49,651 nt of DNA from a virus. The translations under genes and the position numbers were made by a program. Under the pieces are notes generated by a model. That model was not told where the DNA came from and did not search any database. It saw only the letters and a program-made list of their open reading frames with translations. The stretch lies in IMG/VR virus record IMGVR_UViG_3300031706_000004, positions 1 to 49,651 of that record; one strand, 5' to 3'. Below are positions 1 through 46,997 of the stretch, in pieces. How positions within the stretch are numbered: the stretch's first letter is position 1; every line of letters begins with the position of its first letter.

Positions 1-611
1 TGCTGTTCAAATGTTGGATACTTTTCTAAGTTGTCGTTTAATATATTAGAAATTACAGGTTCAAAATGGGGATAAGGAATTGTTAATATTCTATCTTCTA
101 ATGCATAACTGTCTGCCCAAGTGTTATACTGGTCTGTGCAATCTAAGTTGCCAGTAACATATATAATTTGTTTAGGATTAATATTATGAGTTTTACAATT
201 GTTATGGAACCAACTCCATAACCATTTAGTTTGATACCCTTCATGAGATTGATCTATTAATAAGTATGCTCCGCCCTTGCGCAATGCTTTACGTTGTTTT
301 TTAGTTAGATAATCAAATAAACTTTTTCTATTACGAACATCGTTATTAAATCCTTGTCCTATACTATCAGGTCCGCACCAATCCCACGGAGCATGTGCAA
401 CACCAGTAGCAATAACATGAATTTGGCCGCGTTCATGTGTTGATCCAAATGTATGGCCAGACTTATCGCTGTGTAGCATAAATCCAATTACTATAGGACT
501 AGGAGTAAATCTAGAAATACCTGATAGATTTTTATCTCTACAGTTAGTTAAGTTTCTTGGCACAGTCTGAAATTGACCACCATAGTCTAAAGTGTCGAAA
601 GTAAAATGCAT
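1..611 (-). CDS. Conserved-looking protein of unknown function, C-terminus cut by window edge
   Basis: An open frame runs leftward from an ATG at 611 for 203 codons without a stop and leaves the window, so the C-terminus is missing. The ATG directly follows the TAA of the epimerase gene, which supports both the start and cotranscription. The product starts MHFTFDTLDYGGQF and is soluble-looking, with no signal peptide or membrane segment. It contains a segment reading ALRKGGAYLLIDQSHEGYQ, followed by a Trp-rich stretch (WLWSWFH) and IIYVTGNLDC, which suggests an alternating alpha/beta enzyme fold. I do not recognise a catalytic motif. From its position at the end of the glycosyltransferase/epimerase cluster I infer a role in the same glycan pathway, but that is context only. 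Confidence 0.75.
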   Translation of the reverse strand, partial: MHFTFDTLDYGGQFQTVPRNLTNCRDKNLSGISRFTPSPIVIGFMLHSDKSGHTFGSTHERGQIHVIATGVAHAPWDWCGPDSIGQGFNNDVRNRKSLFDYLTKKQRKALRKGGAYLLIDQSHEGYQTKWLWSWFHNNCKTHNINPKQIIYVTGNLDCTDQYNTWADSYALEDRILTIPYPHFEPVISNILNDNLEKYPTFEQ

Positions 612-1613
612 TTAAATTAACCTGTCTGTCCACGTTTTGGGTGTCCTAGAATTTACTATTTCTAAAGGAAAAGTATAATCAAAAGGCTTTGTGCCGCGGT
701 TCTTAATATATTGAACTGTGTGTTCAACTGCTGTTTCTAAAGTAGTTGTTGTTTTATAATTTAAAAGTTCTCTTGCTTTGTTTGCACTACACATTGCATG
801 TTTAACTTCTTGAGGCCTATCATCTACATGTATAGGATCTAAGTTACAGCCTGTTTTGTTAGCTACAAGTTTTGCTAGATCTTTAATAGTAATTGTTCCT
901 TCATCTGGTCCAATATTTATAATTTGGTTTATAATAGTTTTATCTAATGTAAGTTTTTCAAGACACTGTATACAATCATCAACATAACTAAAACATCTTG
1001 TTTGTAAGCCGTCACCGTATATAATAGAAGGATTGCTTTGTAAGTTTCTATTAATCATTATACTCATTACATTACGAAACGGATCATCATATCGTTGCCT
1101 TGGTCCAACTATATTATGAGGAACAGCAATATTCCACTCCATTCCATGCACTTCGCTAAGTGTTATTAATACCTGTTCGCCTGCTACTTTTGCAATGCCG
1201 TAAGGATCAACTGGCGCAGGAGTTTGTTCTTCATGAAATGGAATTGTTTGTCCGCCGTATCGTGCCATACTAGTGCAATACACAAATCGTTTTACTTTAT
1301 TTTCTAGTGCTGCACTAACTGTAGCTACAGTTGCTTGAAATATATTTTTAGTAATAAAATCTGGACTTACTACACTTAGTCCTTCGTGAGCAGTTGCAGC
1401 AGTATGTACAACAATATCAACGCCTTTCATTATGTCAGCCATGCGCTCTCTATCACAACAATCTACTTTGTATAAAGTAGCTTTGTGATTTACATTATCT
1501 TCATAGCCGCCGATAAGAGTATCATTGCCTGAAACTTCATGACCTAATTCAATCATGCGATCTGCTAAATGGCTTCCTAAAAAGCCAGCTATACCTGTTA
1601 TAAAAATGTGCAT
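612..1613 (-). CDS. NAD-dependent sugar epimerase/dehydratase (extended SDR)
   Basis: The 333-residue protein has the hallmarks of an extended short-chain dehydrogenase acting on nucleotide sugars. An N-terminal Rossmann motif TGIAGFLGSH (Gly7, Gly10, Gly13) binds NAD, and the catalytic set is Ser115 with Tyr138 and Lys142 (YGIAK). The length is normal for UDP-glucose 4-epimerase or dTDP-glucose dehydratase relatives. The substrate cannot be read from sequence; PHNIVGPRQRYDDP near residue 165 is typical of the epimerase branch. Known members make activated sugars in the cytoplasm. It starts 1 nt after the stop of the glycosyltransferase-like gene at 1615-2814 and ends adjacent to the next start codon, so it is part of a tight operon. 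I infer that it supplies a sugar donor to the glycosyltransferases of this cluster. Confidence 0.9.
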   Translation of the reverse strand: MHIFITGIAGFLGSHLADRMIELGHEVSGNDTLIGGYEDNVNHKATLYKVDCCDRERMADIMKGVDIVVHTAATAHEGLSVVSPDFITKNIFQATVATVSAALENKVKRFVYCTSMARYGGQTIPFHEEQTPAPVDPYGIAKVAGEQVLITLSEVHGMEWNIAVPHNIVGPRQRYDDPFRNVMSIMINRNLQSNPSIIYGDGLQTRCFSYVDDCIQCLEKLTLDKTIINQIINIGPDEGTITIKDLAKLVANKTGCNLDPIHVDDRPQEVKHAMCSANKARELLNYKTTTTLETAVEHTVQYIKNRGTKPFDYTFPLEIVNSRTPKTWTDRLI

Positions 1614-1614: not shown

Positions 1615-2814
1615 TTATGTTACTCTAGGTTTTGCAAAAGTATCTACCATTATTTCTTCTGCCCATTTAAATTCTAGTGGAAAAGAATAGTTTGCTTGCT
1701 TAGTTTGCATAACTTGTGCATTGTGTTTAGCAATCTTTGTACATTTTGTAACCACTGCGGCAAACTCTTGATCTGATAAATTCGATAGTCTTTCTATTTC
1801 AGACGTAATTGCTTTCATACGGTCATTGTCATTTTCAATTGTATCGTATGTTTCGTCTATATACGGATGAAACGTTTTATATCCCAGTTGTTTAAATTCT
1901 TTTAAGAATTCTGGGGTAGAAACTACCATAAACGGTTTAGTACATCCTATAGTTTTGTATGTTTTTTCTGTTGGAAATGCAGGACTAAATTTTCTAAAAT
2001 CTTCGTATGAATGACCTTTAAAGTTCCAAAAAGGATCAAAATGCGATTCTATTATAACACTAATACCTGCTGATGCAAGTTTATCGTATATTCCTGTTGC
2101 CATTTTATCTTGCCAGCCGTTGCCAAATTGGTTAGTTGATTCTAAAGTATACGGCACTTTAGACATCCAGTTAGTTAATTCTGAAGTACGACTGTAGCCC
2201 ATTTCTTCTGCATGTGTAAGCATCTCATCATGTGAAAATGTAATAACTTCACCATAAGGCATAATGTTGTTAAATGTATAATCAAAGTTTTTTAATATAT
2301 CTTTTTTAATTAACTCACAAAAAAGTTGTAATCTAAATTTAAGATAATTTCTACTAAAAGTACTAAACCTATACTTCATTGGTGTAGGTGTTAGTGGCGG
2401 TGCAACAACTCTTTTCATTAACACATTTAGTACAGTAATATTTACATTAGGCAATCCAAGTTCAGTAAACATATCGCCAGCCCATTTTTTAAAGTTTTCG
2501 TCAATGCATATAATGTAAAGTTGATTAGCTGGTACTTTTGTTTCTATTAAAGCTTTAGCTATAATTTCTATGTCAAGTTTATTAAAATACTCATCACCGT
2601 AAAATAAAAGAATTTTAGAAGTAGGATCACGACGTAGGTGTTTAGATATAGAGTAATCTAAAAAGTCATTAAAATATAAACGATTTTGCGCGGCGTCATG
2701 TTGATCATGCCAAAATACTGATCCTTGCTCAAAGCGATGCCTAGAGTGAACAACCTCTACTATACTTTTGTCAAAATACATGCTTGTTTTTCCTGTCTTA
2801 GTATATATTTTCAT
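1615..2814 (-). CDS. Glycosyltransferase-like protein
   Basis: This 399-residue protein has no signal peptide. Two segments resemble a family of glycosyltransferase-like proteins common in marine phages. One is an Arg/Leu-rich helix after FSTFSRNYLKFR (about 151-162). The other is a C-terminal TEKTYK motif (282-287) followed by KPFMVVSTPEFL and LGYKTFHPYIDETYD. The TEK-type motif is reminiscent of the donor-binding C-domain of GT-B fucosyltransferase-like enzymes, so a GT-B transferase is my inference. The central region (30-150) is not recognised. The start codon overlaps the stop of the upstream oxygenase gene by 4 nt (ATGA), which fixes the start and implies translational coupling. It could be a non-catalytic relative. 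Confidence 0.6.
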   Translation of the reverse strand: MKIYTKTGKTSMYFDKSIVEVVHSRHRFEQGSVFWHDQHDAAQNRLYFNDFLDYSISKHLRRDPTSKILLFYGDEYFNKLDIEIIAKALIETKVPANQLYIICIDENFKKWAGDMFTELGLPNVNITVLNVLMKRVVAPPLTPTPMKYRFSTFSRNYLKFRLQLFCELIKKDILKNFDYTFNNIMPYGEVITFSHDEMLTHAEEMGYSRTSELTNWMSKVPYTLESTNQFGNGWQDKMATGIYDKLASAGISVIIESHFDPFWNFKGHSYEDFRKFSPAFPTEKTYKTIGCTKPFMVVSTPEFLKEFKQLGYKTFHPYIDETYDTIENDNDRMKAITSEIERLSNLSDQEFAAVVTKCTKIAKHNAQVMQTKQANYSFPLEFKWAEEIMVDTFAKPRVT

Positions 2815-3545
2815 TCTTGTGTCCTTTTATCATAAGGTATTTTTGATATATCATCAATCCAATATAAACTTCTGTGAGGTGGATCGTCTGGTAAATGTGT
2901 GCTGTTACTAGTATAGTAAAATAACCTAAAAGTTGTTCTATTTTTATCTACTGGACACTCTATTGGTTCAGCATAACCATGATATCCAAATCTATTATAT
3001 TGCCAAATTACACATCTATTGAACAACGTATCTACAGTTGTTACAATATTTTCTTTTTTATTATCATAAAAATCTAATGCACCCTTCCAGTCTACTTGCC
3101 AATCAGGTGTCAAGTACAAAGTAAATGTTAATACTCTATGTAATTGAAGTTGATCGTTCCAATTAAAATCAGTATGTACGTTTAGCATATCACCGTTAAA
3201 ACTTTTACTATAGCCTGCACCTATTAAATGCGGGTCGGGAATTAGTCCTGTAATTCCTGTATACTCTGAAAGCAATTTTAAAAAATTTGAACTATGAAAA
3301 TAATTAAGTGTGTTAAACGCAATTGGCGCTAACTCCATCTTATTTACTTCCATCATATGGCTGCCGTTTCTTGTAAACGTCTTCCAATGCTCGTCAGGAA
3401 TAGTTTGGCTTTCGTTGTACATGCTTAGTGCAAGATCTTTTGGGAGGAAGTTATCCATAATACCTAAAGGTATTGGCTTAGCTGATTTAAACTCAGAAGC
3501 GTTCTTAAAGATTTCAGTACCAAATACGTCTGTTACATGTTCCAA
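2811..3545 (-). CDS. 2-oxoglutarate/Fe(II)-dependent oxygenase, TTG start
   Basis: The 244-residue protein carries the facial triad of the prolyl-4-hydroxylase-like 2OG-Fe(II) oxygenases: His124 and Asp126 (HTD) and a distal His189 (FGYHG). Arg203 or Arg207 (NRTTFR) could bind the 2-oxoglutarate carboxylate. Members hydroxylate proteins, sugars or small molecules with O2 and 2-oxoglutarate; the substrate here is unknown. The predicted start is a TTG at 3545, not ATG. It is supported by an AAAGGA Shine-Dalgarno sequence about 6 nt upstream, and the next in-frame ATG is codon 30, which would remove part of the fold. A late-promoter-like ACTAAATA lies 34 nt upstream, so this gene may start a sub-operon within the glycan cluster. 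It overlaps the next gene by 4 nt. Confidence 0.8.
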   Translation of the reverse strand: MEHVTDVFGTEIFKNASEFKSAKPIPLGIMDNFLPKDLALSMYNESQTIPDEHWKTFTRNGSHMMEVNKMELAPIAFNTLNYFHSSNFLKLLSEYTGITGLIPDPHLIGAGYSKSFNGDMLNVHTDFNWNDQLQLHRVLTFTLYLTPDWQVDWKGALDFYDNKKENIVTTVDTLFNRCVIWQYNRFGYHGYAEPIECPVDKNRTTFRLFYYTSNSTHLPDDPPHRSLYWIDDISKIPYDKRTQE

Positions 3546-3579: not shown

Positions 3580-3587
3580 TATTTAGT
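3580..3587 (-). promoter_or_regulatory. Late-promoter-like element (ACTAAATA) upstream of the oxygenase gene
   Basis: On the minus strand the 56-nt gap before the TTG start contains ACTAAATACTATT, close to the T4 late -10 sequence TATAAATA with its usual downstream context. It lacks the first two consensus bases. The spacing to the start codon (34 nt) is a little longer than at the other candidate late promoters here (19-28 nt). A TATAAT-like sequence nearer the gene has no -35 partner. Assignment is tentative. Confidence 0.35.
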
Positions 3588-3601: not shown

Positions 3602-5008
3602 TTAATCTGACTCTGGTTGAGACTTTGCAATTTCTGCTAATTCGCCGCAGTGATTATAAAAGTTTTCCATTTCAGGAAACGTTTCTAAAAAGTTTACATT
3701 GCGCCTACGATCATACTCATTAAACCAATTATAAAAATCTATACGACCTTCTTTAACTCTTTTTTCATCATAGTTAGCTGTAGCAAAGTAATCACGCACA
3801 CGACGAAACTTTTGATACTCTAGTTCTGTAAACTTAGTAGCATCGTTGTCATCTTTGTTATCGTTAATAAATTCTAATATTTTATCAAAGTGCGGCAAAA
3901 ATTCTTCCTTAGGCAATATCATCATATCGTATTGTAATGGTTCTTTTAGATAAGGAGTATCAAATCTAATACGTCTTCCATATCCTCCTGGATTCATTGT
4001 TGCTTGATACTGTGTTCGCCAATCTAAAATTTTCTGTAAAAATTGTGTAAACGAAGTTACACTTAAAATATTAAATGTACACATGATACTAACTGGAGCA
4101 TTTGTTATTGATATGTAATGATTTAAATTCTTTTCCCATAAATCTAGTTTTAATCCTGTGCGTATATACTCTGCCCGAGCACCCCACGAATCTAAGCTAG
4201 AAAATAATTTAAAGTTTTTAATCTTTTTATCATCTTTTAATTCTTTAACATTTGTTGCTAATCTTTTAACCATTGCTTCTTTAATGCCAAGGTTACTATT
4301 CAAATTTATTTCTAATTGAGGTTTAGGATCTTCTTTTAAACGTTCAAATAAATTCCAAGTGCTTTTATGCATTAGAGGCTCTCCGCCAGTAAGACGAAGA
4401 ATGTTTAGTGTTTTACTTACTTCTGGCCACCATTTCCACCAAGCTTTTATGTAAGGATTTTCATCTTCAGCATAAGGTTTAAACCAATCAACATTTAATG
4501 TGTGATTTTTAACTGGCATAGGACCATGCTTCTTTATTTCTGCGTCATATGAACTACTAGCCATAGGATGACAGTATCCGCACTTAAAATTACATTCATT
4601 ACTAAATGCTAATTCAATGTATTCAGGGTTAATATTAAAGTCCCACGGACTATTAACAATTTCTTCTAGTCTGTGTTGATTGTAAATGCCTGCATTACGC
4701 TCATGTCTATCACTAATATGTGTGTCACTAAGCTTTTCAACATTCCAACAGTACTGACATCCTTTAGGCTGTTCACCTATTAACATTAATGCACGTTCTT
4801 TTTTCTTTTCTATTGTATTGTGAAGTGCCGAAGGATCTTTTTCAATTTCTTCAAGCGGTATATGATGAGGTGATGGATGATAACAACTGTGTGTGTCGCC
4901 GGTATGTAAATAAATTGTAGTGTGATGCCACTTGGCTAAACAAAAAGTAGGACTTATAGTATTAGTAATGTCTTTTACATTTTGTATTCTGTCGGTTTCG
5001 TTGCTCAT
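3602..5008 (-). CDS. Radical SAM protein with N-terminal twitch-type cysteine region
   Basis: The 468-residue protein has the radical SAM cluster motif CNFKCGYC (Cys139, Cys143, Cys146), followed by TGGEP (207-211), which contacts S-adenosylmethionine. Further cysteines lie N-terminal to the core (Cys23, Cys42 in HSCYHP, Cys84 and Cys87 in GCQYC), as in the twitch-domain radical SAM proteins common in marine phages. They probably bind a second iron-sulfur cluster. The twitch region precedes the barrel instead of following it as in SPASM enzymes. Radical SAM enzymes generate a 5'-deoxyadenosyl radical for difficult transformations; the substrate is unknown. Its start overlaps the upstream stop by 4 nt (ATGA). 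Neighbours suggest sugar or peptide modification. It appears full length, with no frameshift. Confidence 0.88.
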   Translation of the reverse strand: MSNETDRIQNVKDITNTISPTFCLAKWHHTTIYLHTGDTHSCYHPSPHHIPLEEIEKDPSALHNTIEKKKERALMLIGEQPKGCQYCWNVEKLSDTHISDRHERNAGIYNQHRLEEIVNSPWDFNINPEYIELAFSNECNFKCGYCHPMASSSYDAEIKKHGPMPVKNHTLNVDWFKPYAEDENPYIKAWWKWWPEVSKTLNILRLTGGEPLMHKSTWNLFERLKEDPKPQLEINLNSNLGIKEAMVKRLATNVKELKDDKKIKNFKLFSSLDSWGARAEYIRTGLKLDLWEKNLNHYISITNAPVSIMCTFNILSVTSFTQFLQKILDWRTQYQATMNPGGYGRRIRFDTPYLKEPLQYDMMILPKEEFLPHFDKILEFINDNKDDNDATKFTELEYQKFRRVRDYFATANYDEKRVKEGRIDFYNWFNEYDRRRNVNFLETFPEMENFYNHCGELAEIAKSQPESD

Positions 5009-5937
5009 AACTTTTCTATAAACCTTTGATGATCTGTCCTCGACGGATGTTGATATACTGCTTTGAAGAACTTACTTTGCTGGGCATCTAATGGATTGCT
5101 TGCAATAGGAACGTCTAATTCATCAATAAGACTATTACCTAACCGTTGAATTGATTCTAACAAGTTGTCGTCATTTATATGTACACTAACTGTTTTATCC
5201 CAATACTTGTTTAAATATTTAAAGTCTCTTACTTGAACATAATCCCAGTCTGTACACATTGTCATATACAAGCCTTCTCTAGCACCGTATATTGCCCATA
5301 GACCGTTTTCTACATCTGCACCTATCATAGTCCAAATGTACAGCCAATGTAAGCAGCGCCAGTGATTGTTTTTAAGTTCGTCTTTACTAATTCTTGCGCC
5401 ACGGTCAGTTGCAAGCTTTACACCTTCTCTGAAGCCTGCTCTCCACGCTTGTCCAGCAGTTTCGTTGTTGTATACATCTGAATAACAACTATTCATTTGG
5501 ATATATTTTGCGTCCCAACAAAAATCTACTTGTGCATGTGCATTATTAGGATCTGCATTTTCATGTGTACGCATATTCAGTACATACTGCTTGGGCCAAC
5601 ATTTTAATCCACCGTTGCCATACATTAATCCGTTTATTTCATTGCGGCCACACCAACTAATTACAGTATTTTTTAAATCTGCATGTTCTTCAAAATCTAT
5701 TTCTTGATTTAAAAACTCTTCTCGAATTCTATTATCGCCATCTACTGTAATAAAGCGATCTGTTTCACTTAGTTCTGCACAAGCTTTGTGTGCAGCATCG
5801 CTGCCATCTACCCCGTGTACACGTTTAGCCCAAGGAACTTTCTTGCATAAATCTGCATAGTTTTTTTCTGCATTAGGTTCATCGTAACTAAGATAAATGA
5901 TATCATAGTCAATTGGTTTAAATTTCTGGGACATCAT
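5005..5937 (-). CDS. Glycosyltransferase-like protein with DGDN motif
   Basis: The 310-residue protein begins with a beta strand and the motif IIYLSYDEPNA, continues through GVDGSDAAHKAC, and has VDGDN at 65-69. Its Asp66-Gly-Asp68 fits the metal-binding DxD of a GT-A glycosyltransferase, and the preceding AELSETDRFI resembles the strand leading to DxD. The C-terminal half contains several Trp/His-rich segments (NNHWRCLHWLYIW) that could form an acceptor site. The donor is unknown. The ATG at 5937 overlaps the upstream stop by 4 nt, and a second ATG follows immediately, so the true start could be one codon later. It sits between the repeat-containing protein and the radical SAM gene in one operon. 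Confidence 0.65.
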   Translation of the reverse strand: MMSQKFKPIDYDIIYLSYDEPNAEKNYADLCKKVPWAKRVHGVDGSDAAHKACAELSETDRFITVDGDNRIREEFLNQEIDFEEHADLKNTVISWCGRNEINGLMYGNGGLKCWPKQYVLNMRTHENADPNNAHAQVDFCWDAKYIQMNSCYSDVYNNETAGQAWRAGFREGVKLATDRGARISKDELKNNHWRCLHWLYIWTMIGADVENGLWAIYGAREGLYMTMCTDWDYVQVRDFKYLNKYWDKTVSVHINDDNLLESIQRLGNSLIDELDVPIASNPLDAQQSKFFKAVYQHPSRTDHQRFIEKL

Positions 5938-7274
5938 ACAACCTCGTGTGCGTAACTGTCAAAATATTTTGCTGTGTATATACTTACATCCTTAGAGTCT
6001 GCCTCTGATTCAAATATGAACGGAATGACAGATGAAGCATCTGATAATAAATCACCTACTGTAAACTCTAAGCTTCGGTATAACACATTAGGATCATACT
6101 TTGCTGTAACACTAAAATATAATGTTTCATCAGATCTATAACCACTAGTTTGTAAAAACTTTTTAGTATAAGGATTAAGTGATAAAGACCATGATTTAGA
6201 AAGTGTATTTTGTTGCACTATAATATCGTACTCTTTGTCTACTGCAATTTGATACAAAGATTTGCCACATAATATTGTTTGGCCGTTTTTTAAATCTGTA
6301 GTTTCAGATAGCATTAATCGCATGTCGTTTGAATCAACACTTCCAGTTTCTCCAGTTAAATCAATTTCTAAACAGTTTTTATTGTTGTAATATAGCAAAG
6401 TAGAAAGTGAATTATAAAAGAAAATACTACTTTTATCTTTATCAAATTTTTCTTCTTCTTCTTGAATACTGTATATACTATTATATTTTAGTATAATATC
6501 GCCTGGATTAATGTTATTGACAGTTTTTAATAATTTATTTTCGTCAGCATATAAATTTACATCGCCAATAATAACTTCTACATTTTTCATTGTAAATTCA
6601 GTGTCTGCTTCTGCGTATTCTAATATTTTATAAACATTGCCATTTAGCCATACATGTTGACCTGCTTGATGCTCTAAGGCTTTATACCATACATCAACAT
6701 GAACACCCTCATACTCAGGTTTCATAACTATTTTTGTTGCACTATGGCTTTGTGTTGGCAAGTTTGTTAACATTACATCATCTTCTAATATGTTATGCGC
6801 AGTAGTATCAAATTCTGTGCCTAGCTCAATATTAGTTTTAAGTTTGTAAACTATTTCATTATGCCAAACGAACTCACCTTCAATATAACTTTTTGTAATA
6901 TCCCAGATACATATGTCAATTCCTTCAAATACACTTGTTACTGAAAAATGACCGTCAAATGTATTCTTAATAACAGGCAACTGATACGTCATTGTATCTG
7001 CTGTTTTTTGATTGTCATCATACGATACTTCTTTTAATCTTATTTGTTTAGAACTTATATCGTATGTTATAGTAAACTCTTCAGTTCGACGTTGTCCAGA
7101 AAGAATAGGCTTAACTTCTTCATTATCAATTTCAAAAATTTCAAGCCCTTCTTGTAAAACATTAGTTGAGCTAATTTTATGTATTTTGCCATCTTCTTTG
7201 TTGTAGTATACATACGACTGTGTACTAACTGGTCCAGCTTTAATTTTTTTAAGTAAGTCTTGTAAATCAGACAT
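5934..7274 (-). CDS. Protein with chitin-binding-like (CBM5/12-type) repeats
   Basis: The 446-residue protein is not recognised as a whole. It contains two short imperfect repeats, at about 121-152 and 192-226, each with an aromatic start, a Gly, then Val-Trp and Val-Tyr-Lys (for example HVWLNGNVYKI). This matches the Tyr-xx-Gly-xx-Val-x(4-6)-Tyr pattern of carbohydrate-binding module family 5/12. The rest is rich in beta-prone sequence with no transmembrane segment. I infer a sugar-binding or virion-surface protein, possibly the acceptor or product of the cluster's glycosyltransferases. Similar mini-repeats occur in the 5141-residue tail protein. It begins 8 nt inside the upstream glycosyltransferase gene (ATGTCTGA overlap) and ends overlapping the next by 4 nt. 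Confidence 0.6.
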   Translation of the reverse strand: MSDLQDLLKKIKAGPVSTQSYVYYNKEDGKIHKISSTNVLQEGLEIFEIDNEEVKPILSGQRRTEEFTITYDISSKQIRLKEVSYDDNQKTADTMTYQLPVIKNTFDGHFSVTSVFEGIDICIWDITKSYIEGEFVWHNEIVYKLKTNIELGTEFDTTAHNILEDDVMLTNLPTQSHSATKIVMKPEYEGVHVDVWYKALEHQAGQHVWLNGNVYKILEYAEADTEFTMKNVEVIIGDVNLYADENKLLKTVNNINPGDIILKYNSIYSIQEEEEKFDKDKSSIFFYNSLSTLLYYNNKNCLEIDLTGETGSVDSNDMRLMLSETTDLKNGQTILCGKSLYQIAVDKEYDIIVQQNTLSKSWSLSLNPYTKKFLQTSGYRSDETLYFSVTAKYDPNVLYRSLEFTVGDLLSDASSVIPFIFESEADSKDVSIYTAKYFDSYAHEVV

Positions 7275-8109
7275 TTATTAAATTCCCGTATCTTTCTAGT
7301 GCTGGCGATTTTTCTATAAAATCCGTTTCTGTATAATGCAATATTCCAGTCTGTGCATAGTTTCCAACTTTTATACTGCCGTCTTTTGAAATATAAACAC
7401 CTACTTGAGTTTGCCAGCTAGATTGTACTTCGTTCCAGCCTTGGCAATATGGTTTCATATGAGTAAAGCTTGGAAATTTAGAAACTTTGTTTGTTACAGA
7501 TGTTTCACAATCTAATAGCTTTACTACAATTGCTGAACATACATCAATACTTACATGCTTAGGACGAGTGGCGCCCTCTAAATGTTGTTCGTAGAATGTT
7601 TCCCAGTTGTTAACTACTAATTCTAACCAAGTATAAAACTCTTGTGCAAAATCACACTTCTTAAAGTAGTGTAATCCTACAAATAAATTAGGAAGATTGT
7701 TTGCTATAAACGTTTTTCTGTAATAACTAGTGTCAGCAACTGTGCCTCTATATGTTAATACTTTATTAGTAAAAAACATTTCGTAATTAGAAAGAAAATT
7801 CCACCATACATCGATGTTTTGTAACACCAACATATCAGTGTCCATTACAATTGTTTCATCATACGGACTAGCATGATAAATCTTCCAACGGTTTTCTATT
7901 TTCCACGCACTATCTTTAGCACTGTCCCCAAACGGAATAGGAATAATTTTATCAAAAAGACGTATGTATTCTTGTGGCACTTCGTCATTAGTAATTAAAC
8001 TAATTTTTGCATCGTTGTACGTGTGCAAGCTCATTGCTAATAAAGCAGCTTGCTCTACATAATTATCAGTTTCATTGTTTTGTGCAAGAACTACAATTCC
8101 TTTAGTCAT
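7267..8109 (-). CDS. GT-A glycosyltransferase, paralogue of the gene at 8102-8953
   Basis: The product is 280 residues from the ATG at 8109. A TTG six codons further up is in frame but less likely, because this ATG has GGAG seven bases upstream and yields MTKGIVVLAQNN, parallel to the MSKGVFLIARNN start of its neighbour. The DxD metal site is Asp90-Thr-Asp92 within SPYDETIVMDTD; the neighbour has the same SPYDET block before its DTD. The fold is a Rossmann-like GT-A, nearest in feel to GT8 enzymes that transfer from nucleotide sugars. The donor and acceptor are unknown. The start overlaps the upstream stop by 8 nt (ATGACTAA), implying coupled translation. The pair probably arose by tandem duplication. 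Confidence 0.75.
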   Translation of the reverse strand: MTKGIVVLAQNNETDNYVEQAALLAMSLHTYNDAKISLITNDEVPQEYIRLFDKIIPIPFGDSAKDSAWKIENRWKIYHASPYDETIVMDTDMLVLQNIDVWWNFLSNYEMFFTNKVLTYRGTVADTSYYRKTFIANNLPNLFVGLHYFKKCDFAQEFYTWLELVVNNWETFYEQHLEGATRPKHVSIDVCSAIVVKLLDCETSVTNKVSKFPSFTHMKPYCQGWNEVQSSWQTQVGVYISKDGSIKVGNYAQTGILHYTETDFIEKSPALERYGNLINV

Positions 8110-8953
8110 TTGCAAACTCCCGATCAATTATTCTATCAAGACTAATTTTATTCATTACGTGTATATTCTGTCCTGTTGTTTTCAATGCAGTAAATTCGCC
8201 AAGGTATCCGTTTTTTTCTACTAAAAACATCATTTCATCTTCATTTAATTGCCACAGAATATCTTTATCTGTAGTATATAACATACTACCTGGTAATTGC
8301 TGCGCAAAAGTTCCTGTTTGAAATCCATTCATCATATGAATTGCAATACTAAAAGCAAAGTCATTCCTAAACAAACTAGAAGTTATTTGGTACACACGCC
8401 TATAATGATTCCACTCGTCTTCAATGTGCTTAACTAAGTCAAAAAATACACGATTAGTTTCTGTCTTTTTAAAGTACACAACAGTTGCCCAATAAAAGTC
8501 AACACTAGCATTACTAATAGTATCAAACTCTGCTTCATTACGCACTTTTGCAATATCGTCTGATGTGTTGTATATCATAAAGTCTGATTTAGATCCAAAG
8601 CATCCTTTTAATAAATCATTTGATATAATGTAATCAGTATCCATTAACAATGTTTCATCATACGGCGAAAGCCGGTATACATTTGCTCTGTTACTATTTT
8701 TAAAACTAGCTGTTTTTTTAGTTAAAGAACCGTCAAAGAAATATCGCATATTTCTATCATCAACATACGGTAATGTAATAATATTATCAAAGTCATCTGT
8801 GCCGTAATCTGATGTTATGTACTCTTCACTATCCGTAGCTAAAGTTACAGGTACACCTAGATATTTTTTTATTCGTCTAGCAAGGAATACTGCTTGTTTT
8901 GCATAGTCAATTTCACCGTTGTTTCGAGCAATTAAAAATACGCCTTTACTCAT
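8102..8953 (-). CDS. GT-A glycosyltransferase, paralogue of the gene at 7267-8109
   Basis: The product is 283 residues from the ATG at 8953. An in-frame TTG at 8962 would add three residues. It shares an N-terminal (M)xKGxxxxAxNN strand and the block SPYDETLLMDTD with its neighbour, giving Asp105-Thr-Asp107 as the metal-binding DxD. The C-terminal half differs clearly between the two, so they probably use different acceptors. The start overlaps the upstream stop by 8 nt (ATGAGTAA), the same geometry as the next junction. No membrane segment is visible, so it should act in the cytoplasm. Its role in virion or host-surface glycosylation is inferred from context. Confidence 0.75.
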   Translation of the reverse strand: MSKGVFLIARNNGEIDYAKQAVFLARRIKKYLGVPVTLATDSEEYITSDYGTDDFDNIITLPYVDDRNMRYFFDGSLTKKTASFKNSNRANVYRLSPYDETLLMDTDYIISNDLLKGCFGSKSDFMIYNTSDDIAKVRNEAEFDTISNASVDFYWATVVYFKKTETNRVFFDLVKHIEDEWNHYRRVYQITSSLFRNDFAFSIAIHMMNGFQTGTFAQQLPGSMLYTTDKDILWQLNEDEMMFLVEKNGYLGEFTALKTTGQNIHVMNKISLDRIIDREFAND

Positions 8954-9296
8954 AATTGACAAGTTTCTCTACGCTTCTGCTCTGTTTAAGCTTTAAGTAT
9001 TGGGTATGATAATCATTAGATGATGTAGTATAAATATCCATAATGTGTCCATAAAAGACACTCAAGTCTTCTACCATACACGGAATACCGTTATCATCAG
9101 TAATAATAATTTCATCTTGTTCTGCATGTACCATTGTACTTACAAACGTAATTAGTTCACGGGTAATTGTAAACTGTGATCCGCTATAAAAGTGTATTAA
9201 TGATTCTTGGTATTTTTCTGCTAACAATCGTTTCTGATTGTTGAGTGTTAGCATGTAATTAGAAAAGTCTAGTGCTTTCTCTAAACGCTCATCCAT
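8946..9296 (-). CDS. Small conserved phage protein of unknown function
   Basis: The 116-residue, charged, mostly helical protein begins MDERLEKALDFSNYMLTLNN and ends with HTQYLKLKQSRSVEKLVNYE. The middle has an acidic segment, DEIIITDDNGIP. I believe similar small proteins occur in other marine T4-like phages, but I know no function. The start is clear: AGGAG lies seven bases before the ATG, and a strong sigma70-type promoter lies about 30-58 nt upstream. As first gene of the glycan operon it could be regulatory or a virion accessory protein, but nothing in the sequence decides this. The stop overlaps the first glycosyltransferase start by 8 nt. Confidence 0.75.
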   Translation of the reverse strand: MDERLEKALDFSNYMLTLNNQKRLLAEKYQESLIHFYSGSQFTITRELITFVSTMVHAEQDEIIITDDNGIPCMVEDLSVFYGHIMDIYTTSSNDYHTQYLKLKQSRSVEKLVNYE

Positions 9297-9325
9297 AGTT
9301 AAACTCCTAGTTTATTATTACTACT

Positions 9326-9354
9326 AGTATATATTAAAATTAAGGGTTTGTCAA
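9326..9354 (-). promoter_or_regulatory. Sigma70-type promoter for the glycan cluster
   Basis: On the minus strand TTGACA (9349-9354) is followed by exactly 17 nt and TATACT (9326-9331), five or six of six consensus bases in each box. The expected transcript start is near 9319, giving a leader of about 23 nt with an AGGAG ribosome site before the ATG at 9296. The -10 box and spacing match the plus-strand promoters before gp55 and gp47. It lies in the 69-nt gap after the last fibre gene, so the cluster can be transcribed apart from the late genes. Confidence 0.8.
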
Positions 9355-9365
9355 GCGGAGATTGG

Positions 9366-10343
9366 TTAGGAAAGTGGTCGAGTTAGTATAGCTGTTGGTG
9401 TTGTAGTAATAACTACTGCATTATGCTGTGTGCCGTTAATGTTTATTGAACTGTTTGCTCTTGCAGTTTCTATAATGCTGTTAAATCTTCCATATACAAC
9501 TTCATCAGTTCCGTAAGTTGGATCAGTTGGAGTACCGTCTATGTATTGTACTTTAAAAATTATCGTAGACGTTCCGTCACTTGTTGCAGACTCAGCAGCA
9601 TATATTCTGTATTCATTATTAGCATATACAGCACTACTATTTCTTGAATAAATTAGCTGGTAACTTGTATTAAGATCGTAACTTCCTATATTAGATCCTG
9701 TACCAACACCTGCATTATTAACAGTGTTTTCACCTTTAAAGCTTGTTGTTCCCATACTGTTTAATATTGTTTGCCAATCAACTGATTTAGGTTGACTACC
9801 TGTATATCCTACTGATGCGCTAAAGCGTATTTCGCCGCCTGCGTTAAAATAATGACGCCTTTGTTCAGCAGTTGGAAATACAATTTTAAAAATAGTACTA
9901 ATTTCAGTTAACCATGTACCTGTTTCGGGTCTAGTGCTAGACGCACTTGGCAAAGCTTCAACAGTTAAATTAGCAGAATCAACTAGGAATCTGTCAGTTA
10001 TAATATTATTTCCTAAAGCTACTAATCCTTGTATATACGATTCTTCAATTTTGTCAGCGGTTGCTGTGTTTGTATCATAGTCGCCAATTACAAATTCATC
10101 AATAGCAAGACTAGCACCTACTTGGTGTGATCGTGTTCTTATTAAGTCAATATATAGGTTTTCGTAATCTTGTGCTGTAACTTTATCAGCATTTGGAACT
10201 GAGGCTCGTGAGCCGGCAACAGACAATGTACTAGTTGTTTGTCCATAGCCATAACTAGGACTGACAATGTCAGAAACGCCGAGTACCTCGTTTACTACGG
10301 TTCTGAGGGCGTTATATTCATCTGCTAGTATAGTTGTTGGCAT
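9366..10343 (-). CDS. Putative tail-fibre/virion structural protein, paralogue of the 10406-11329 product
   Basis: The 325-residue protein shares its layout with the upstream neighbour. An N-terminal helix (YNALRTVVNEVLG) is followed by GYGQ, an LYIDLIRTRSHQVGA block, and a C-terminal beta domain. That domain has FNAGGEIRFSAS, a WQTILNSMGTTSF segment and a GSNIGSYDLNTSYQ segment that correspond one for one to blocks of the neighbour. I associate this family with marine T4-like phage structural regions, but the precise role is not known to me. Ser/Thr/Asn richness fits a fibre or decoration protein. It has its own late-type element 25 nt upstream (AATAAATA). It is the last structural gene before the glycan cluster. 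Confidence 0.65.
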   Translation of the reverse strand: MPTTILADEYNALRTVVNEVLGVSDIVSPSYGYGQTTSTLSVAGSRASVPNADKVTAQDYENLYIDLIRTRSHQVGASLAIDEFVIGDYDTNTATADKIEESYIQGLVALGNNIITDRFLVDSANLTVEALPSASSTRPETGTWLTEISTIFKIVFPTAEQRRHYFNAGGEIRFSASVGYTGSQPKSVDWQTILNSMGTTSFKGENTVNNAGVGTGSNIGSYDLNTSYQLIYSRNSSAVYANNEYRIYAAESATSDGTSTIIFKVQYIDGTPTDPTYGTDEVVYGRFNSIIETARANSSININGTQHNAVVITTTPTAILTRPLS

Positions 10344-10368
10344 TAATCAATCTCTTTTGCTGTCAATG

Positions 10369-10376
10369 TATTTATT
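10369..10376 (-). promoter_or_regulatory. Late-type promoter element AATAAATA
   Basis: In the 62-nt gap between the two fibre-like paralogues the minus strand reads AATAAATACATTG, one mismatch from the T4 late -10 octamer TATAAATA. It lies 25 nt upstream of the ATG at 10343, within the 19-28 nt seen at most other candidate late promoters here. No -35 element is present, as expected for gp55-dependent promoters. Confidence 0.55.
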
Positions 10377-10405
10377 TAAAAATATCACTGCGTTGTTATG
10401 TTTGA

Positions 10406-11329
10406 TTATGCTAGTGCTTGATTATTAAAGTAAGTCGGTGCTACTACTGTTACACCACTGTCTGCGCGGAGATGTTGTAAAGTACTTTCCAGTCTGCCAT
10501 CAACGTTGTTATCAACATTGTTATCAACAACTACATCGTTAAAATCAATTCTAAATATAATACGTGTTGGAATATCTGAACGTGCTTTAACAGTATAAAG
10601 GTTTCCTGCATACACACCACTATAGCTACCAGAACCAGTTTTTGTATAAATGTCTTGATAAGAGCTTGTTAAATCATAATTACCAATTGACGAACCGCCA
10701 CCGCCTGTTGCTGTAGTTGTTTCTGCATTAAATTTAATAGTTCCTACTTCTGAACATAATGCAGCCCAATCAAGTCCTTTTGGAGTACTAGCACCTGTGT
10801 TGTTTGCGCTTATTCTAAGTTCGCCGCCTGTGTTAAAAAAGAATCTTCTTGTATTTGCAGATGTAAATGTAACTGCTACTTCATGATAAATTAAACCGTT
10901 CCAGTTACTAGATCTTGCACTTGCTATTGCAGGTTCTAATGCAGACTGACTGAGGTGCATTACTGCTTTATCAGTTTGTACTTGCGTCATTAAACTTTCA
11001 AAGTCTAGTACGCCCTTTTTAAATCCATCTGGATCGACAGTTGTTACACCTGCATCACTAACAAATGTACTTGTAGTTTCTGCTACTGTATTAAGATTTT
11101 GTACAACTTCAGCAATACCAATGTCGCCTGCGCCTACTTGGTGTACTCTTGCTTTAAGAATATCAGCATAAATTGCATTCATATCAGCTGCTTCAACTAC
11201 ATCGCCTGTATTATTAACAGGTACACTAGTTACTGATTGTCCGTAACCATCTTGGCCAGACCCAGTTCCTAGTATAAGTGAAATACTAGACTGTAAATTG
11301 TTAATTCGTGCTGCTGTTATATCTGCCAT
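10406..11329 (-). CDS. Putative tail-fibre/virion structural protein, paralogue of the 9366-10343 product
   Basis: The 307-residue protein has an N-terminal helix (ARINNLQSSISLILGTG), then GYGQ, IYADILKARVHQVGAG, and a C-terminal beta domain. The domain shows FNTGGELRISAN, WAALCSEVGTIKF and SSIGNYDLTSSYQ, matching its paralogue block by block. The centre has a Gly-rich turn (TGGGGSS) and the C-terminus a VDNNVDNNVDG repeat. The function is inferred as structural from composition, paralogy and location directly after the tail-fibre genes. It starts 6 nt after the stop of the 493-residue fibre gene, with AAGG upstream, so it is probably cotranscribed with it. Confidence 0.65.
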   Translation of the reverse strand: MADITAARINNLQSSISLILGTGSGQDGYGQSVTSVPVNNTGDVVEAADMNAIYADILKARVHQVGAGDIGIAEVVQNLNTVAETTSTFVSDAGVTTVDPDGFKKGVLDFESLMTQVQTDKAVMHLSQSALEPAIASARSSNWNGLIYHEVAVTFTSANTRRFFFNTGGELRISANNTGASTPKGLDWAALCSEVGTIKFNAETTTATGGGGSSIGNYDLTSSYQDIYTKTGSGSYSGVYAGNLYTVKARSDIPTRIIFRIDFNDVVVDNNVDNNVDGRLESTLQHLRADSGVTVVAPTYFNNQALA

Positions 11330-11335
11330 TTTTTA

Positions 11336-12817
11336 TTATACCTTCAATACACATTCGACTAACTTTTCATCTTCTTCGGCATTGCTTTCAAGTGCAATTC
11401 CTACCATTGCTGTTGTTGCAACAGTACCGCATACACCATCTGCCCATGCATAAATCACCTGTCCTTTATTTACAGGTCCTTTAACTCTTACTGGAAGACG
11501 TCCTTTAAGGCCGATGTATTGTCCGTCAGCTTCACTGTTCATCATATATGCTGGATCAGTTGATACAACACCAATACAATGATTACTTGTGCCTGCTGGC
11601 TCTACTTCGTAACCTTCATGGGTGCATACCGCAACTGCTGTGCCTGCTGGTAATTCTTTTTCTGTTGTATATTTTTCTGCTAAGTCAGCATAACGTGCTT
11701 GTGTTGCAGTACCTTGGAATAAGTTTGCAGCAATGTTGCCTGTTGCATCTCTAACAGCAATTGTATTATTTGTAGCACTTGCATCAGCACTTCGGAAGTC
11801 ACTTCCTACTCGTAGTGTAGTTGCTTTAGATGCTTCACCTGTAAATGCAGTTGCATATACATTTGAAAATCCTACGCTTGCACTACCTAGTGTAAATGTG
11901 TTATCAACTGCTGGAACTATTCCAGTTGCTGTAACTGTAGCTACGTGTGTTAATACGCCTGCACCGCTAGTAACTTTTAGTTTAATTGCGCCACTGTTCG
12001 TAACGTTTTGAATTATGCCGTCATAACCGTTTGAATCAATTTTTAATTGTAGATCGTTTGAATCACCAATTAATGCACCTGCATCTGGAAATTCAACTGC
12101 ACTTGTAAAGACTGTGTTGCCTATACCTGTTTGTACATAGTTTGCTGCTGCAACTCCTCCTAGCTTATCAGCATTTGTTGCTGTGCCGTGGAATCTATCA
12201 GTTGTACTAGTAACACCTGCTGTTGCTAGTTTAGTATTTCTTAATGTAAGACCTTTATTAATTCTATCATAACCTTGGCCAATTAATGCTGTTTCAGTTG
12301 ACTTTAAGTCAAACTGTGTTGGACTTATAACAAAAATTGTTCCATCTTCAATAACACTAGCAATTATTCCTCTTGTAGCACTTGTAGTATCAAGAACTTC
12401 GAGGCTTTGCATTTGGGTTACACCTTCGCCTGCGTTCTGTGGTCCTATAAGTACAAAACTTGTACCGTTGAATACATATAGCTGATCATTGCCGCTATCC
12501 CACCAAAAGTCGCCAATAGCTAAACCAGTTGGTTGTGTTGCGCCGATTTCAGCGCCACCAGTTGTGCGCCATTTTGTTCCATCATAAAACTTTAATTTGC
12601 TTGTTGCACTATCAAACCAGACCTGACCGCTAATTGGTCTGCTTGGTTGATTTGCTCCGCTAAAGTTTTCCAGCAAAAACAAAAAGTTTTCATTTTGTAT
12701 TTCGCCGTAACCTGCGTAGTTTTTACCGATGAATTTAAGGTCAGTTGTTTGATCAACTGTACCATCTTCCACTGTAGTTAACAGTGTGTTATTGTATCTA
12801 TCTATTGCATATGCCAT
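11336..12817 (-). CDS. Tail-fibre protein with shared N-terminal adaptor and C-terminal beta domain
   Basis: This is one of three tandem paralogues (493 residues). The N-terminal part (about 1-125) has GKNYAGYGEIQNENFLFLLE and two copies of a mini-repeat of the form G(Q/D)xW-x(8-10)-L-x-(V/F)-x-(D/N)-G-T (about residues 64-86 and 102-124). The same adaptor is in the two following proteins and probably attaches the fibre to the baseplate or to partner fibres. The middle is Thr/Ala/Gly-rich, with a DRFHGTATNADKLGGVAAAN segment. The last 120 residues form a distinct domain beginning ADLAEKYTTEKELPAGT and containing GVVSTDPAYMMNS and GLKGRLPVRVKG, a C-terminal module I recognise from marine phage tail proteins. 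A late-type GATAAATA precedes it. Receptor binding is possible but unproven. Confidence 0.75.
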   Translation of the reverse strand: MAYAIDRYNNTLLTTVEDGTVDQTTDLKFIGKNYAGYGEIQNENFLFLLENFSGANQPSRPISGQVWFDSATSKLKFYDGTKWRTTGGAEIGATQPTGLAIGDFWWDSGNDQLYVFNGTSFVLIGPQNAGEGVTQMQSLEVLDTTSATRGIIASVIEDGTIFVISPTQFDLKSTETALIGQGYDRINKGLTLRNTKLATAGVTSTTDRFHGTATNADKLGGVAAANYVQTGIGNTVFTSAVEFPDAGALIGDSNDLQLKIDSNGYDGIIQNVTNSGAIKLKVTSGAGVLTHVATVTATGIVPAVDNTFTLGSASVGFSNVYATAFTGEASKATTLRVGSDFRSADASATNNTIAVRDATGNIAANLFQGTATQARYADLAEKYTTEKELPAGTAVAVCTHEGYEVEPAGTSNHCIGVVSTDPAYMMNSEADGQYIGLKGRLPVRVKGPVNKGQVIYAWADGVCGTVATTAMVGIALESNAEEDEKLVECVLKV

Positions 12818-12845
12818 TATTATGTAACCCCTAGTGCTATTATAT

Positions 12846-12853
12846 TATTTATC
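12846..12853 (-). promoter_or_regulatory. Late-type promoter element GATAAATA
   Basis: The minus strand of the 43-nt gap reads ACGATAAATAATATAATAG, one mismatch from TATAAATA, 28 nt upstream of the ATG at 12817. AGGGG lies between the element and the start codon. No -35 sequence is seen. Confidence 0.55.
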
Positions 12854-12860
12854 GTTTTTC

Positions 12861-14768: not shown

Positions 14769-14769
14769 G

Positions 14770-44973: not shown

Positions 44974-44981
44974 TATTTAGT
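44974..44981 (-). promoter_or_regulatory. Late-promoter-like element ACTAAATA for the baseplate operon
   Basis: The minus strand reads CAACTAAATAGTAGTATAGG, 23 nt upstream of the ATG at 44950. The TAAATA core and spacing match the other candidates, but the first two consensus positions differ, as at 3580-3587. Its upstream end touches the TTGACA of the divergent rightward promoter. Confidence 0.42.
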
Positions 44982-45009
44982 TGACAAAATTATGTTAGTA
45001 GTTTATAAT
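44981..45009 (+). promoter_or_regulatory. Sigma70 promoter, perfect consensus, upstream of gp55
   Basis: TTGACA (44981-44986), exactly 17 nt, then TATAAT (45004-45009): all twelve consensus bases match at optimal spacing. It lies about 65 nt before the gp55 ATG and upstream of a second promoter, giving tandem early promoters. Confidence 0.88.
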
Positions 45010-45019: not shown

Positions 45020-45048
45020 TTGACATCCTTGTAATTGTCGTGTATACT
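45020..45048 (+). promoter_or_regulatory. Second sigma70-type promoter upstream of gp55
   Basis: TTGACA (45020-45025), exactly 17 nt, then TATACT (45043-45048). Transcription should start near 45055, giving a leader of about 20 nt that carries TATAGGAG. The -10 box TATACT is the same as before gp47 and before the glycan cluster. Confidence 0.82.
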
Positions 45049-45074: not shown

Positions 45075-45923
45075 ATGCGTCCCAAGAATTATCTAAACAA
45101 TAAAGACATACTTAAAGAAATACACAAATCAAAGAATCAGTTCAACAGTTATTTAGAACCTGAACATGGTCAATATGATATTATTTTACTAGATGTAGGT
45201 AAAATAAATCGACTGTCTGTTGCTGAAGCAAAGCGTAATAAAGCAAAGAAGATGTCTTCAGCAGAATACGAGCGCAGGAAAGGCTTAGGTGAGAAGGTCA
45301 AACAAGCAGAATGCGAAACATTAGCATCTGAAATTACAAAAGAAGAGCTAATCTTCCGTGTAATGACATTTGATCACATTCCAGAAGAGCCAGGTCGCAA
45401 AAAGAACCCTAAGACTATTGCTGATACAAAAGTTAAGCTACCGTTTCCCCCATTTAAACATTACAAGTATGATGACGAAGGCGAAATTATCCTAGTAGGT
45501 AAAAGCCATTGGGAAGGCGGCATGGATAACGGCAATTTTAATCATAAGCACGGTAAAGCAACTAACAACCTTGCTATGATGTGGTTAAAACTTGTCGATC
45601 GTTATGCAACTCGAGGCAATGTACGTGGTTACACATATAATGACGAAATGAAAGGACAAGCAATACTACAATTATCACAAATTGGTTTGCAGTTTGACGA
45701 ATCTAAGTCAGATAACCCATTTGCATACTATACTGCCGCTGTTACTAATAGTTTTGTACGAGTTATTAACATAGAAAAGCGTAATCAAAACATTAGAGAT
45801 GATATCTTAGAGATGAACGACTTGTCTCCTAGTTATACAAGACAGAATCAAGGCGAATGGGAAGCAAGCGTGAAGCGCAATGAAGATGCTGCACCTACAC
45901 AATACACTGATACCAAAAAATAG
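45075..45923 (+). CDS. 55: Late-transcription sigma factor gp55 (T4-like)
   Basis: The 282-residue protein begins with NYLNNKDILKEI, matching the T4 gp55 start (NYVNNKELLQAI). Its second half, LAMMWLKLVDRYATRGN, YTYNDEMKGQAILQLSQIGL, then NPFAYYTAAVTNSFVRVIN, corresponds to the sigma region 2-like core that binds RNA polymerase and recognises the late -10 sequence. Two differences from T4 (185 residues) stand out. About 110 Lys/Glu-rich residues are inserted at roughly 25-150. The C-terminus (NEDAAPTQYTDTKK) has no hydrophobic clamp-binding tail like the DFLYE-type end of T4 gp55. AGGAG is six bases before the ATG, behind tandem sigma70 promoters. It should drive the late genes on the opposite strand. 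Confidence 0.92.
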   Translation: MRPKNYLNNKDILKEIHKSKNQFNSYLEPEHGQYDIILLDVGKINRLSVAEAKRNKAKKMSSAEYERRKGLGEKVKQAECETLASEITKEELIFRVMTFDHIPEEPGRKKNPKTIADTKVKLPFPPFKHYKYDDEGEIILVGKSHWEGGMDNGNFNHKHGKATNNLAMMWLKLVDRYATRGNVRGYTYNDEMKGQAILQLSQIGLQFDESKSDNPFAYYTAAVTNSFVRVINIEKRNQNIRDDILEMNDLSPSYTRQNQGEWEASVKRNEDAAPTQYTDTKK

Positions 45924-45924: not shown

Positions 45925-45938
45925 TTGACAGGTGTCAA
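45925..45938. repeat. Perfect inverted repeat TTGACA-GG-TGTCAA over the -35 box
   Basis: The -35 hexamer is followed after GG by its exact reverse complement, forming a 14-nt palindrome. It could be an operator half-overlapping the promoter, or a short hairpin just after the gp55 stop. No T-run follows, so a terminator is unlikely. The other three promoters lack it. Confidence 0.6.
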
Positions 45939-45953
45939 TAATTACTATATACT
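45925..45953 (+). promoter_or_regulatory. Sigma70-type promoter for gp47/gp46
   Basis: TTGACA (45925-45930) starts 1 nt after the gp55 stop; 17 nt later comes TATACT (45948-45953). The expected start of transcription is near 45960, giving a leader of about 20 nt with a strong GGAGG. It is the fourth promoter in the window with exactly 17 nt spacing. Confidence 0.82.
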
Positions 45954-45980: not shown

Positions 45981-46997
45981 TTGTTTAAAAAAGCTGCGGT
46001 GTTTACGGACATCCATTTTGGTTTGAAAGGTAATAGTCGTATACATAACGAAGATTGCGAAGAATTTATTGATTGGTACATAGAACAAGCTCAGGCTGCT
46101 GGTTGCGAAACTGGTATCTTCTGCGGAGACTGGCATCATAATCGTAATAGCCTTAACCTTACCACTATGGATGCCACAATTAGAAGCATGGAAAAGCTAG
46201 GTGCTGCATTTGAGAAGTTTTACTTCTTCGATGGTAACCATGACTTGTATTATAAAGACAAGCGTGATGTTAACAGTACTGCCTTTGCAAAACACATACC
46301 AGGTATTACGTTTATAGACGAAATCTTCATTGAAGATGATGTTGCACTAGTACCATGGCTTGTTGGCGATGAGTGGAAGAAGATGAAAGATATCGAAACA
46401 AAGTATTTGTTCGGTCACTTTGAACTTCCTAGCTTCTATATGAACGCATTGGTTAGAATGCCTGATCATGGTGACCTAAAGCCTGAACACTTTAAGCATC
46501 AAGAGTACGTATTCAGTGGACACTTCCACAAACGTCAGAAGCAAGGTGCTATTCATTACATTGGTAATGCGTTTCCGCACAACTATGCTGACGTAGGCGA
46601 TGATGACCGTGGCATGATGATACTTGATAAAGAGAATAACAAAGAGCCAGAGTTTATTAACTGGCCCAACTGTCCTAAGTACCGTACTGTAACACTTAGT
46701 AACCTAATTGACAACGCAGATACCTTTATTAAACCTAAAATGTACTTGAGAGTAACGCTTGACCTTCCTATTAGTTACGAAGAAGCAAGCTTTATCAAGG
46801 AAACATTCATTACCCAGTACAACTGTCGTGAAATTACACTTATTGCACAAAAGCACTTAGAAGAGATTAGTACAGAGCTTGATATTGCACAGTTTGAAAG
46901 TGTAGATCAGATTGTAAGTAACGAAATTGCAGAACTAGACACTACTAACTTTGATAAAAGTTTGTTGTTGCAAATATATAATGGACTAGAATCATAA
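45981..46997 (+). CDS. 47: Recombination nuclease subunit gp47 (SbcD/Mre11-like), TTG start
   Basis: The 338-residue protein carries the full calcineurin-like phosphoesterase set: FTDIH (Asp10, His12), CGDWHH (48-53), FDGNHD (83-88), FGHFE (144-148) and SGHFHK (179-184). These bind two Mn ions for DNA end processing. With gp46 it forms the Mre11/Rad50-like complex that resects ends for recombination-dependent replication. The length matches T4 gp47 (339). The start is a TTG with GGAGG seven bases upstream. The only nearby ATG, at 45967, is out of frame and leads to a stop after 19 codons. It has its own sigma70 promoter and ends 1 nt before gp46, so the two subunits are cotranscribed. Confidence 0.94.
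   Translation: MFKKAAVFTDIHFGLKGNSRIHNEDCEEFIDWYIEQAQAAGCETGIFCGDWHHNRNSLNLTTMDATIRSMEKLGAAFEKFYFFDGNHDLYYKDKRDVNSTAFAKHIPGITFIDEIFIEDDVALVPWLVGDEWKKMKDIETKYLFGHFELPSFYMNALVRMPDHGDLKPEHFKHQEYVFSGHFHKRQKQGAIHYIGNAFPHNYADVGDDDRGMMILDKENNKEPEFINWPNCPKYRTVTLSNLIDNADTFIKPKMYLRVTLDLPISYEEASFIKETFITQYNCREITLIAQKHLEEISTELDIAQFESVDQIVSNEIAELDTTNFDKSLLLQIYNGLES

Follow-up and report, generated by a model that had tools for sequence, protein, structure and literature searches.

Gene content of the window and the glycan cluster

The window (the whole stretch of DNA that was analysed, 49,651 bases, one virus record; GC 35.5%) belongs to a T4-type, jumbo-like phage from a family of large marine phages; baseplate wedge and hub proteins, gp55, gp47 and gp46 are recognisable. 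The reverse strand encodes the virion genes and the glycan cluster, whereas gp55-gp47-gp46 are encoded by the forward strand (Table 1). The large wedge protein (ORF 32885-36421), called gp6 in the earlier note, a name not derived from any match, is 37% identical to its counterpart in Agrobacterium phage Atu_ph07; gp55 of the window is 46% identical to gp55 of Pseudomonas phage PA5oct. Positions 3602-17437 gave no match by megablast to 50,697 phage records, and nothing was found in the window with Rfam (gathering threshold) or ARAGORN. The RNA polymerase beta-subunit (PF00562) had no match in 13 phage records or on a related 335-kb contig (see below), which suits the use of host RNA polymerase (RNAP).

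Table 1 Features of the window discussed in the text, with strand and basis of assignment. Distinct relatives are loci with different upstream regions.
Feature	Position	Strand	Basis or remark
Next cluster gene, runs off contig	3..611	-	
NAD-dependent nucleotide-sugar epimerase/dehydratase	612..1613	-	
c399, variable cluster member	1615..2814	-	
2OG-Fe(II) oxygenase	2811..3545	-	
TAAATA (CTAAATA at 3585), inside cluster, 40 nt before 2OG-oxygenase gene	3580..3585	-	3/3 distinct relatives
Radical SAM protein (rSAM), twitch-domain family	3602..5008	-	NF033640, above cut-off
c310, well conserved, possible GT-A-like enzyme	5005..5937	-	invariant D66-x-D68-N69; weak fold match
c446, divergent protein	5934..7274	-	CBM5/12-like matches weak, below Pfam cut-off
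c286b, GT8/glycogenin-like GT-A glycosyltransferase	7267..8127	-	profile, fold, DTD motif
c286a, glycosyltransferase-like, homologous to c286b	8102..8962	-	invariant D108-T109-D110
P116 (116 aa), first operon gene, conserved family	8946..9296	-	homologue loci
Predicted 23-nt leader with AGGAG at 9308-9304	9297..9319	-	+1 at ~9319 inferred, 7 nt past -10
Sigma-70-like host-type promoter TTGACA-17-TATACT, head of glycan cluster	9354-9326	-	sequence, conservation
fib325, last gene before cluster, fibre-type virion protein by position only	9366..10343	-	no family match
Late-type element TAAATAAATA before fib325	10369..10378	-	TAAATA in 25/26 distinct relatives
TAAATA before fibre ORF 11336-12817 (fib493)	12846..12851	-	29/29 distinct relatives
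TAAATA before virion ORF 44099-44950	44974..44979	-	one base from -35 of divergent gp55 promoter
First gp55 promoter TTGACA-17-TATAAT	44981..45009	+	gp55 upstream strict in 42/53 distinct relatives
Second gp55 promoter TTGACA-17-TATACT	45020..45048	+	window scan
gp55, late-transcription sigma factor	45075..45923	+	phrog_12791, E 1.2e-76
TTGACA-17-TATACT before gp47	45925..45953	+	strict in 39/52 distinct relatives
gp47 (SbcD-like nuclease subunit)	45981..46997	+	

Profile, fold and motif together identify c286b as a glycosyltransferase, and c286a as its glycosyltransferase-like homologue by profile comparison (hhalign, 99.2%) and an invariant DTD motif. A match of c286b to glycogenin was obtained by hmmsearch (E 7.2e-6 over ~90 residues); Foldseek gave E 3.7e-8 at probability 1.00, with TM scores by query length of 0.35-0.51 among the matches listed, and this is therefore a match at superfamily level; the DXD metal-binding motif, D96-T97-D98, is invariant in 26 sequences. 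The window protein c286b had no match to Pfam GT8, and c286a by itself matched neither a family nor a PDB entry. Weak GT-A fold matches of c310 (TM ~0.2-0.4) include peptide S-glycosyltransferases and a PBCV-1 glycosyltransferase; no sequence-family match was found for this protein, and profile comparison with c286b showed no relation. For the part tested, the label "glycan" in the earlier note is borne out by a pair of related GT8-like proteins, possibly by a third, and by an epimerase.

P116 had no match at E 0.01 in the 50,697 phage records, and searches for a function gave none; 541 candidate viral-contig stretches encode members of its family. Weak CBM5/12 matches were seen in 8/18 members of c446, in which mean column identity is 50%, versus 76-77% in its neighbours. 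Encoded in the middle of a constant operon, c446 may be a rapidly evolving protein with a surface or substrate role.

The promoter-type site before P116 and its class

The gap at 9365-9297 (69 nt) extends from the stop of ORF 9366-10343 (-) to the ATG of ORF 8946-9296 (-). The TTGACA-17-TATACT sequence reported earlier for this gap, on the strand of the cluster, was recovered exactly, both in its letters and in its coordinates: -35 hexamer TTGACA at 9354-9349, 17-nt spacer, -10 hexamer TATACT at 9331-9326 (-), the ATG of P116 following 29 nt after the -10 on the same strand. The site matches 11 of the 12 letters of TTGACA and TATAAT, and its spacer of 17 is within the 16-18 nt of sigma-70-type promoters.

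Sites were scanned in a loose form (9/12 hexamer letters) and in a strict form (TTGACA-17-TATAMT). The loose scan returned 84 sites in 20 kb versus 81.6 expected; such matches, about as common in the AT-rich window as chance predicts, were not used as evidence. Its top score, 11/12, is shared by the P116 site and a promoter-like site before c310 at 5962-5933 (-). The TTGAC of the latter coincides with coding sequence for a conserved C-terminal segment of c446, so that its conservation is not assignable to a promoter; by sequence this site may be a promoter or a coding coincidence. The strict form was found four times in the window, versus a mean of 0.067 and a maximum of 1 in 300 dinucleotide shuffles (three TATACT, against 0.027 expected by shuffles for TTGACA-17-TATACT, and one TATAAT): once at P116, twice before gp55 and once before gp47.

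Related loci were taken as the best 80 of 541 candidates for P116 and the best 80 of 483 for gp55, identical upstream regions being merged (34 and 53 distinct regions, respectively); as only these best 80 were kept, the counts describe the nearest relatives. Upstream of P116, the strict form is present in 29/34 distinct regions and the relaxed form in 34/34, compared with 0.7% and 0.9%, respectively, of random 130-nt stretches from the P116 loci; for P116 proteins clustered at 80% identity the values are 9/12 and 12/12. Information per position amounts to 1.91 bits in the -35, 1.88 in the -10, 0.93 in the spacer and 0.61 in the 20 nt upstream: the hexamers are near-invariant, the spacer and flanks have diverged. 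A P116 homologue of only 38% identity (L199) still has TTGACC-17-TATAAT 6 nt before its ATG, and where extra genes are present between fib325 and P116 (e.g., L093, L108, L114, L121), the promoter remains at P116. In L124-L128 and L132-L135 the early site is located ~40 nt further upstream. Within 50 nt of P116, near the ATG, these loci also carry a AATATATAATA box that may represent an additional promoter, of a different class. Twelve related records (1.19 Mb), chosen by us, mostly by length, from those behind the gp55 loci, contain 52 strict matches and none to the reversed pattern.

The c310 profile also matched a contig of 335,231 bases (L203-L219) filed under a Neomarinimicrobiota MAG, on which the gene order of the window is kept (gp55, wedge protein, fibres, P116, c286a, c286b, c446, c310, rSAM) and which is therefore considered a related phage; its genes were called by a script of our own instead of a gene finder. 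On this contig, 27 strict sites were counted versus 0.225 expected; a called gene start follows 25 of them at a distance of 5-120 nt, versus 7% of random positions. In its reverse block (160,868-220,105; 40 ORFs) the only strict site is that of P116, between 15 virion-side and 25 cluster-side ORFs; another 11/12 site with spacer 17 is present in the block, inside a giant gene. The fib325 homologue appears split over two of the 15 ORFs; a duplicate copy aligns whole. The cluster continues there with radical SAM proteins, a fatty acid desaturase and a UDP-sugar dehydrogenase; Pfam was run on 10 of the 25 ORFs, of which 6 matched. In the 2.4-Mb MAG as a whole, 40 strict sites were counted, 27 on the 335-kb contig, 10 on C77 and C79, whose letters are identical to it, and 3 elsewhere, next to a single match to the reversed pattern; the sole RNA polymerase beta-subunit match in the MAG is on a contig other than the 335-kb one. 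That this contig and duplicates of parts of it were binned with Neomarinimicrobiota, and similar loci with a Rickettsiales MAG, may be due to misbinning or may be a hint at the host.

These counts bear on whether conservation in so short a gap could derive from some other DNA or RNA constraint (chance consensus, leader RNA or a processing site). The chance level of loose sigma-70 matches in the AT-rich window is in favour of this, but strict matches are ~60-fold more frequent than in shuffles for the window and ~120-fold for the 335-kb contig, where their placement before called gene starts argues against it as well; we consider such a constraint very improbable.

Upstream regions were then scored gene by gene, homologues covering <60% of the window gene or starting <120 nt from a locus end being excluded, here as in the gene-by-gene counts of TAAATA and of the strict form. 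Scores of at least 11/12 were obtained for P116 (31/34), gp55 (43/53) and gp47 (51/52), against 35/3000 random stretches; for none of the regions before c286a (0/37), c286b (0/35), c446 (0/22), rSAM (0/31), 2OG (0/3), fib307 (0/28), fib493 (0/29), fib635 (0/20) and gp46 (0/45); and for some before c310 (9/33) and fib325 (2/26), so that the class is imperfectly confined. The remaining 10/53 gp55 regions have no site scoring at least 11, in at least some of them since the start was called at a position upstream of it. Of the genes following the 27 strict sites on the 335-kb contig, three were identified by BLAST (P116, gp55, gp47) and 20 were scanned with PHROGs; 13 of the 20 match a family, 7 of them with a named function. 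Genes after these other sites encode an exonuclease, an endonuclease, a transcriptional regulator, QueD and sugar enzymes. Counting against the early-promoter reading are one gene on that contig with a weak baseplate/fibre match after a strict site, a strict site 261 nt before a portal gene in one relative, and a few strict sites located inside genes.

In T4-type phages, gp55 and gp47 are part of the early/middle programme, and the P116 site shares its class with both, which points naturally to expression in the early or middle phase. The same membership would fit a middle promoter dependent on a phage activator of the T4 MotA/AsiA type, instead of a plain host promoter. In T4 middle promoters, however, the MotA box replaces the -35 hexamer, whereas the P116 site has a full, near-invariant TTGACA. 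MotA and AsiA models matched 0/13 records, but as no control matched either, this carries no weight; motA and asi are reported absent from pelagi- and cyanomyophages (PMC7029224). A requirement for such an activator appears distinctly improbable to us, and a plain host-type promoter is preferred.

Late-type elements and supply of the cluster

The statement that late genes upstream use TAAATA-type elements holds for ORFs 9366-10343, 11336-12817, 16835-17437, 32885-36421 and 44099-44950 but is not general: before the ORFs adjoining fib325 and fib493, TAAATA is present in 1/28 and 0/20 relatives. The control TATTTA was found in 0/26 (fib325) and 0/29 (fib493) regions; its high count at gp55 (40/53) arises because the divergent late element sits there. 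ATAAAT was discarded as a control, the late element itself often containing ATAAAT (22/26 and 29/29). At gp55, reverse-strand CTAAATA abuts the forward -35 TTGACA (TATTTAGTTGACA) in 51/53 distinct regions (loci with <200 nt upstream excluded). In the divergent early/late pair at 44974-45009 of the window, use of one promoter may preclude use of the other.

Unlike T4-type late promoters, the P116 gap of the window has no TATAAATA-like -10 element, TAAATA being absent from it; among relatives, TAAATA is present in 2/34 distinct P116 regions. In the reverse block of the 335-kb contig, TAAATA precedes 5/15 ORFs upstream of P116 and 2/25 from P116 on, thus 7/40 genes versus 1 for its reverse complement; outside the block, where the element is frequent as well, the values are 65/392 versus 25, so that its occurrence is not limited to virion genes.

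In the window, the 150 nt that precede P116 contain no terminator-like structure; among distinct relatives, only 2/34 have one nearby. Together with the conserved TAAATA of fib325, this leads us to expect late read-through into the cluster. That the promoter "splits" the cluster from the late genes was therefore too strong a wording for a boundary without terminator-like structure, although a promoter-type site does mark that boundary. The idea of the cluster as an early unit is likewise retained in part: a conserved host-type promoter stands at its head, but the 2OG-oxygenase gene has a TAAATA of its own. Given this element and the read-through, early in addition to late describes the cluster better than early instead of late.

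With read-through unhindered, the promoter could serve chiefly P116, an early non-glycan protein without recognisable function and the sole gene directly at the promoter, with the glycosyltransferase genes riding along by position and expressed mostly by late read-through. The gene arrangement speaks against such a restriction. The order P116-c286a-c286b-c446-c310 is constant wherever a locus holds these genes, with variable spacing and variable downstream genes; c286a follows P116 in 80/80 loci and c286b comes next in 75/80, the other five loci ending first; P116 overlaps c286a and c286a overlaps c286b in the window; and neither kind of promoter is conserved among relatives before c286a or c286b. 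We thus regard a promoter chiefly for P116 as unlikely, and favour one for the operon as a whole.

In the mechanism proposed, host RNAP with its housekeeping sigma factor would recognise the P116 site, and the operon P116-c286a-c286b-c446-c310-radical SAM would start early or in mid-infection, alongside gp55 and gp47. The gp55 protein would then redirect the polymerase to TAAATA late promoters, and later supply of the cluster would come from read-through from the fib325 late promoter and from the internal TAAATA, during virion building. The enzymes, present from early on, could glycosylate or otherwise modify a target at the host surface or one in the virion. With a probability of roughly 0.8, the P116 site is in our view a genuine early/middle promoter of host RNAP for the glycan operon, to which read-through would add a later supply; RNAP use, timing and read-through are deduced from the sequence.

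Comparison with known systems and biological meaning

T4-like early promoters of the host sigma-70 type resemble the class described here in their TTGACA/TATAAT hexamers and 17-nt spacer, and here the class also precedes gp55 and gp47; unlike in T4-like phages, one such promoter is also located within the reverse-strand virion block, heading the glycan cluster. The late promoters of T4-type phages that are read by gp55 have their likeness in TAAATA before fibre genes, before the large wedge gene and before the virion gene divergent from gp55.

In the jumbo phages PA5oct, Atu_ph07, Phosso and PBECO4, gp55 is found near a gp47-type nuclease and divergent from virion or hypothetical genes, as in the window. 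Their gp55 gaps have TAAATA on the matching strand, and that of Atu_ph07 contains TATTTAGTTGACA, as does the window. They differ in that their gp55 is 38-47% identical, that P116 had no match in the phage collection, and that early-class scores in their gp55 gaps reach at best 10/12. In Sinorhizobium phage Phosso (L195), an annotated glycosyltransferase directly follows the gp55 homologue; this gene and a small ORF separate gp55 from the gp47-type nuclease.

According to PMC7029224, pelagimyophages carry, within the structural region, a host recognition cluster between VrlC and gp14, in which fibre and LPS genes are accompanied by glycosyltransferases (GT8 being the commonest) and radical SAM cassettes; fibre, glycosyltransferase and radical SAM genes are likewise found together here. 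In that study, a change of the host surface against co-infection is proposed for the glycosyltransferases, and early promoters were predicted with BPROM, prediction of middle and late ones having failed. A conserved promoter at a fibre/glycan boundary is not described in the limited literature searched, including the accessible text of PMC7029224, and the literature searched on promoters of PA5oct, cyanophages and Syn9, with passages of PMC13282480 and PMC3037559, gave no directly comparable promoter map.

Early supply of the enzymes permits modification of the host surface and does not show it; the promoter alone cannot separate this from glycosylation of the virion. Superinfection exclusion, put forward in the earlier note as a role of the cluster, is a guess. 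A dual-phase programme fixed in this lytic jumbo lineage, with early remodelling of the envelope (e.g., to prevent superinfection) and, later, decoration of new fibres by enzymes supplied through read-through from the fibre operon, is conceivable, and we put it forward as a tentative and rather doubtful extension.

The element is of an ordinary kind, in an informative place. Marine myophages are known to carry glycosyltransferase clusters next to their fibre genes, whose enzymes may act either on the host surface or on virions, and the boundary promoter, conserved and of early type, yields a testable prediction of when the enzymes would be made. The strict TTGACA-17-TATAMT form and TAAATA together provide a first regulatory map for a jumbo lineage that is represented here by metagenome-derived contigs only.
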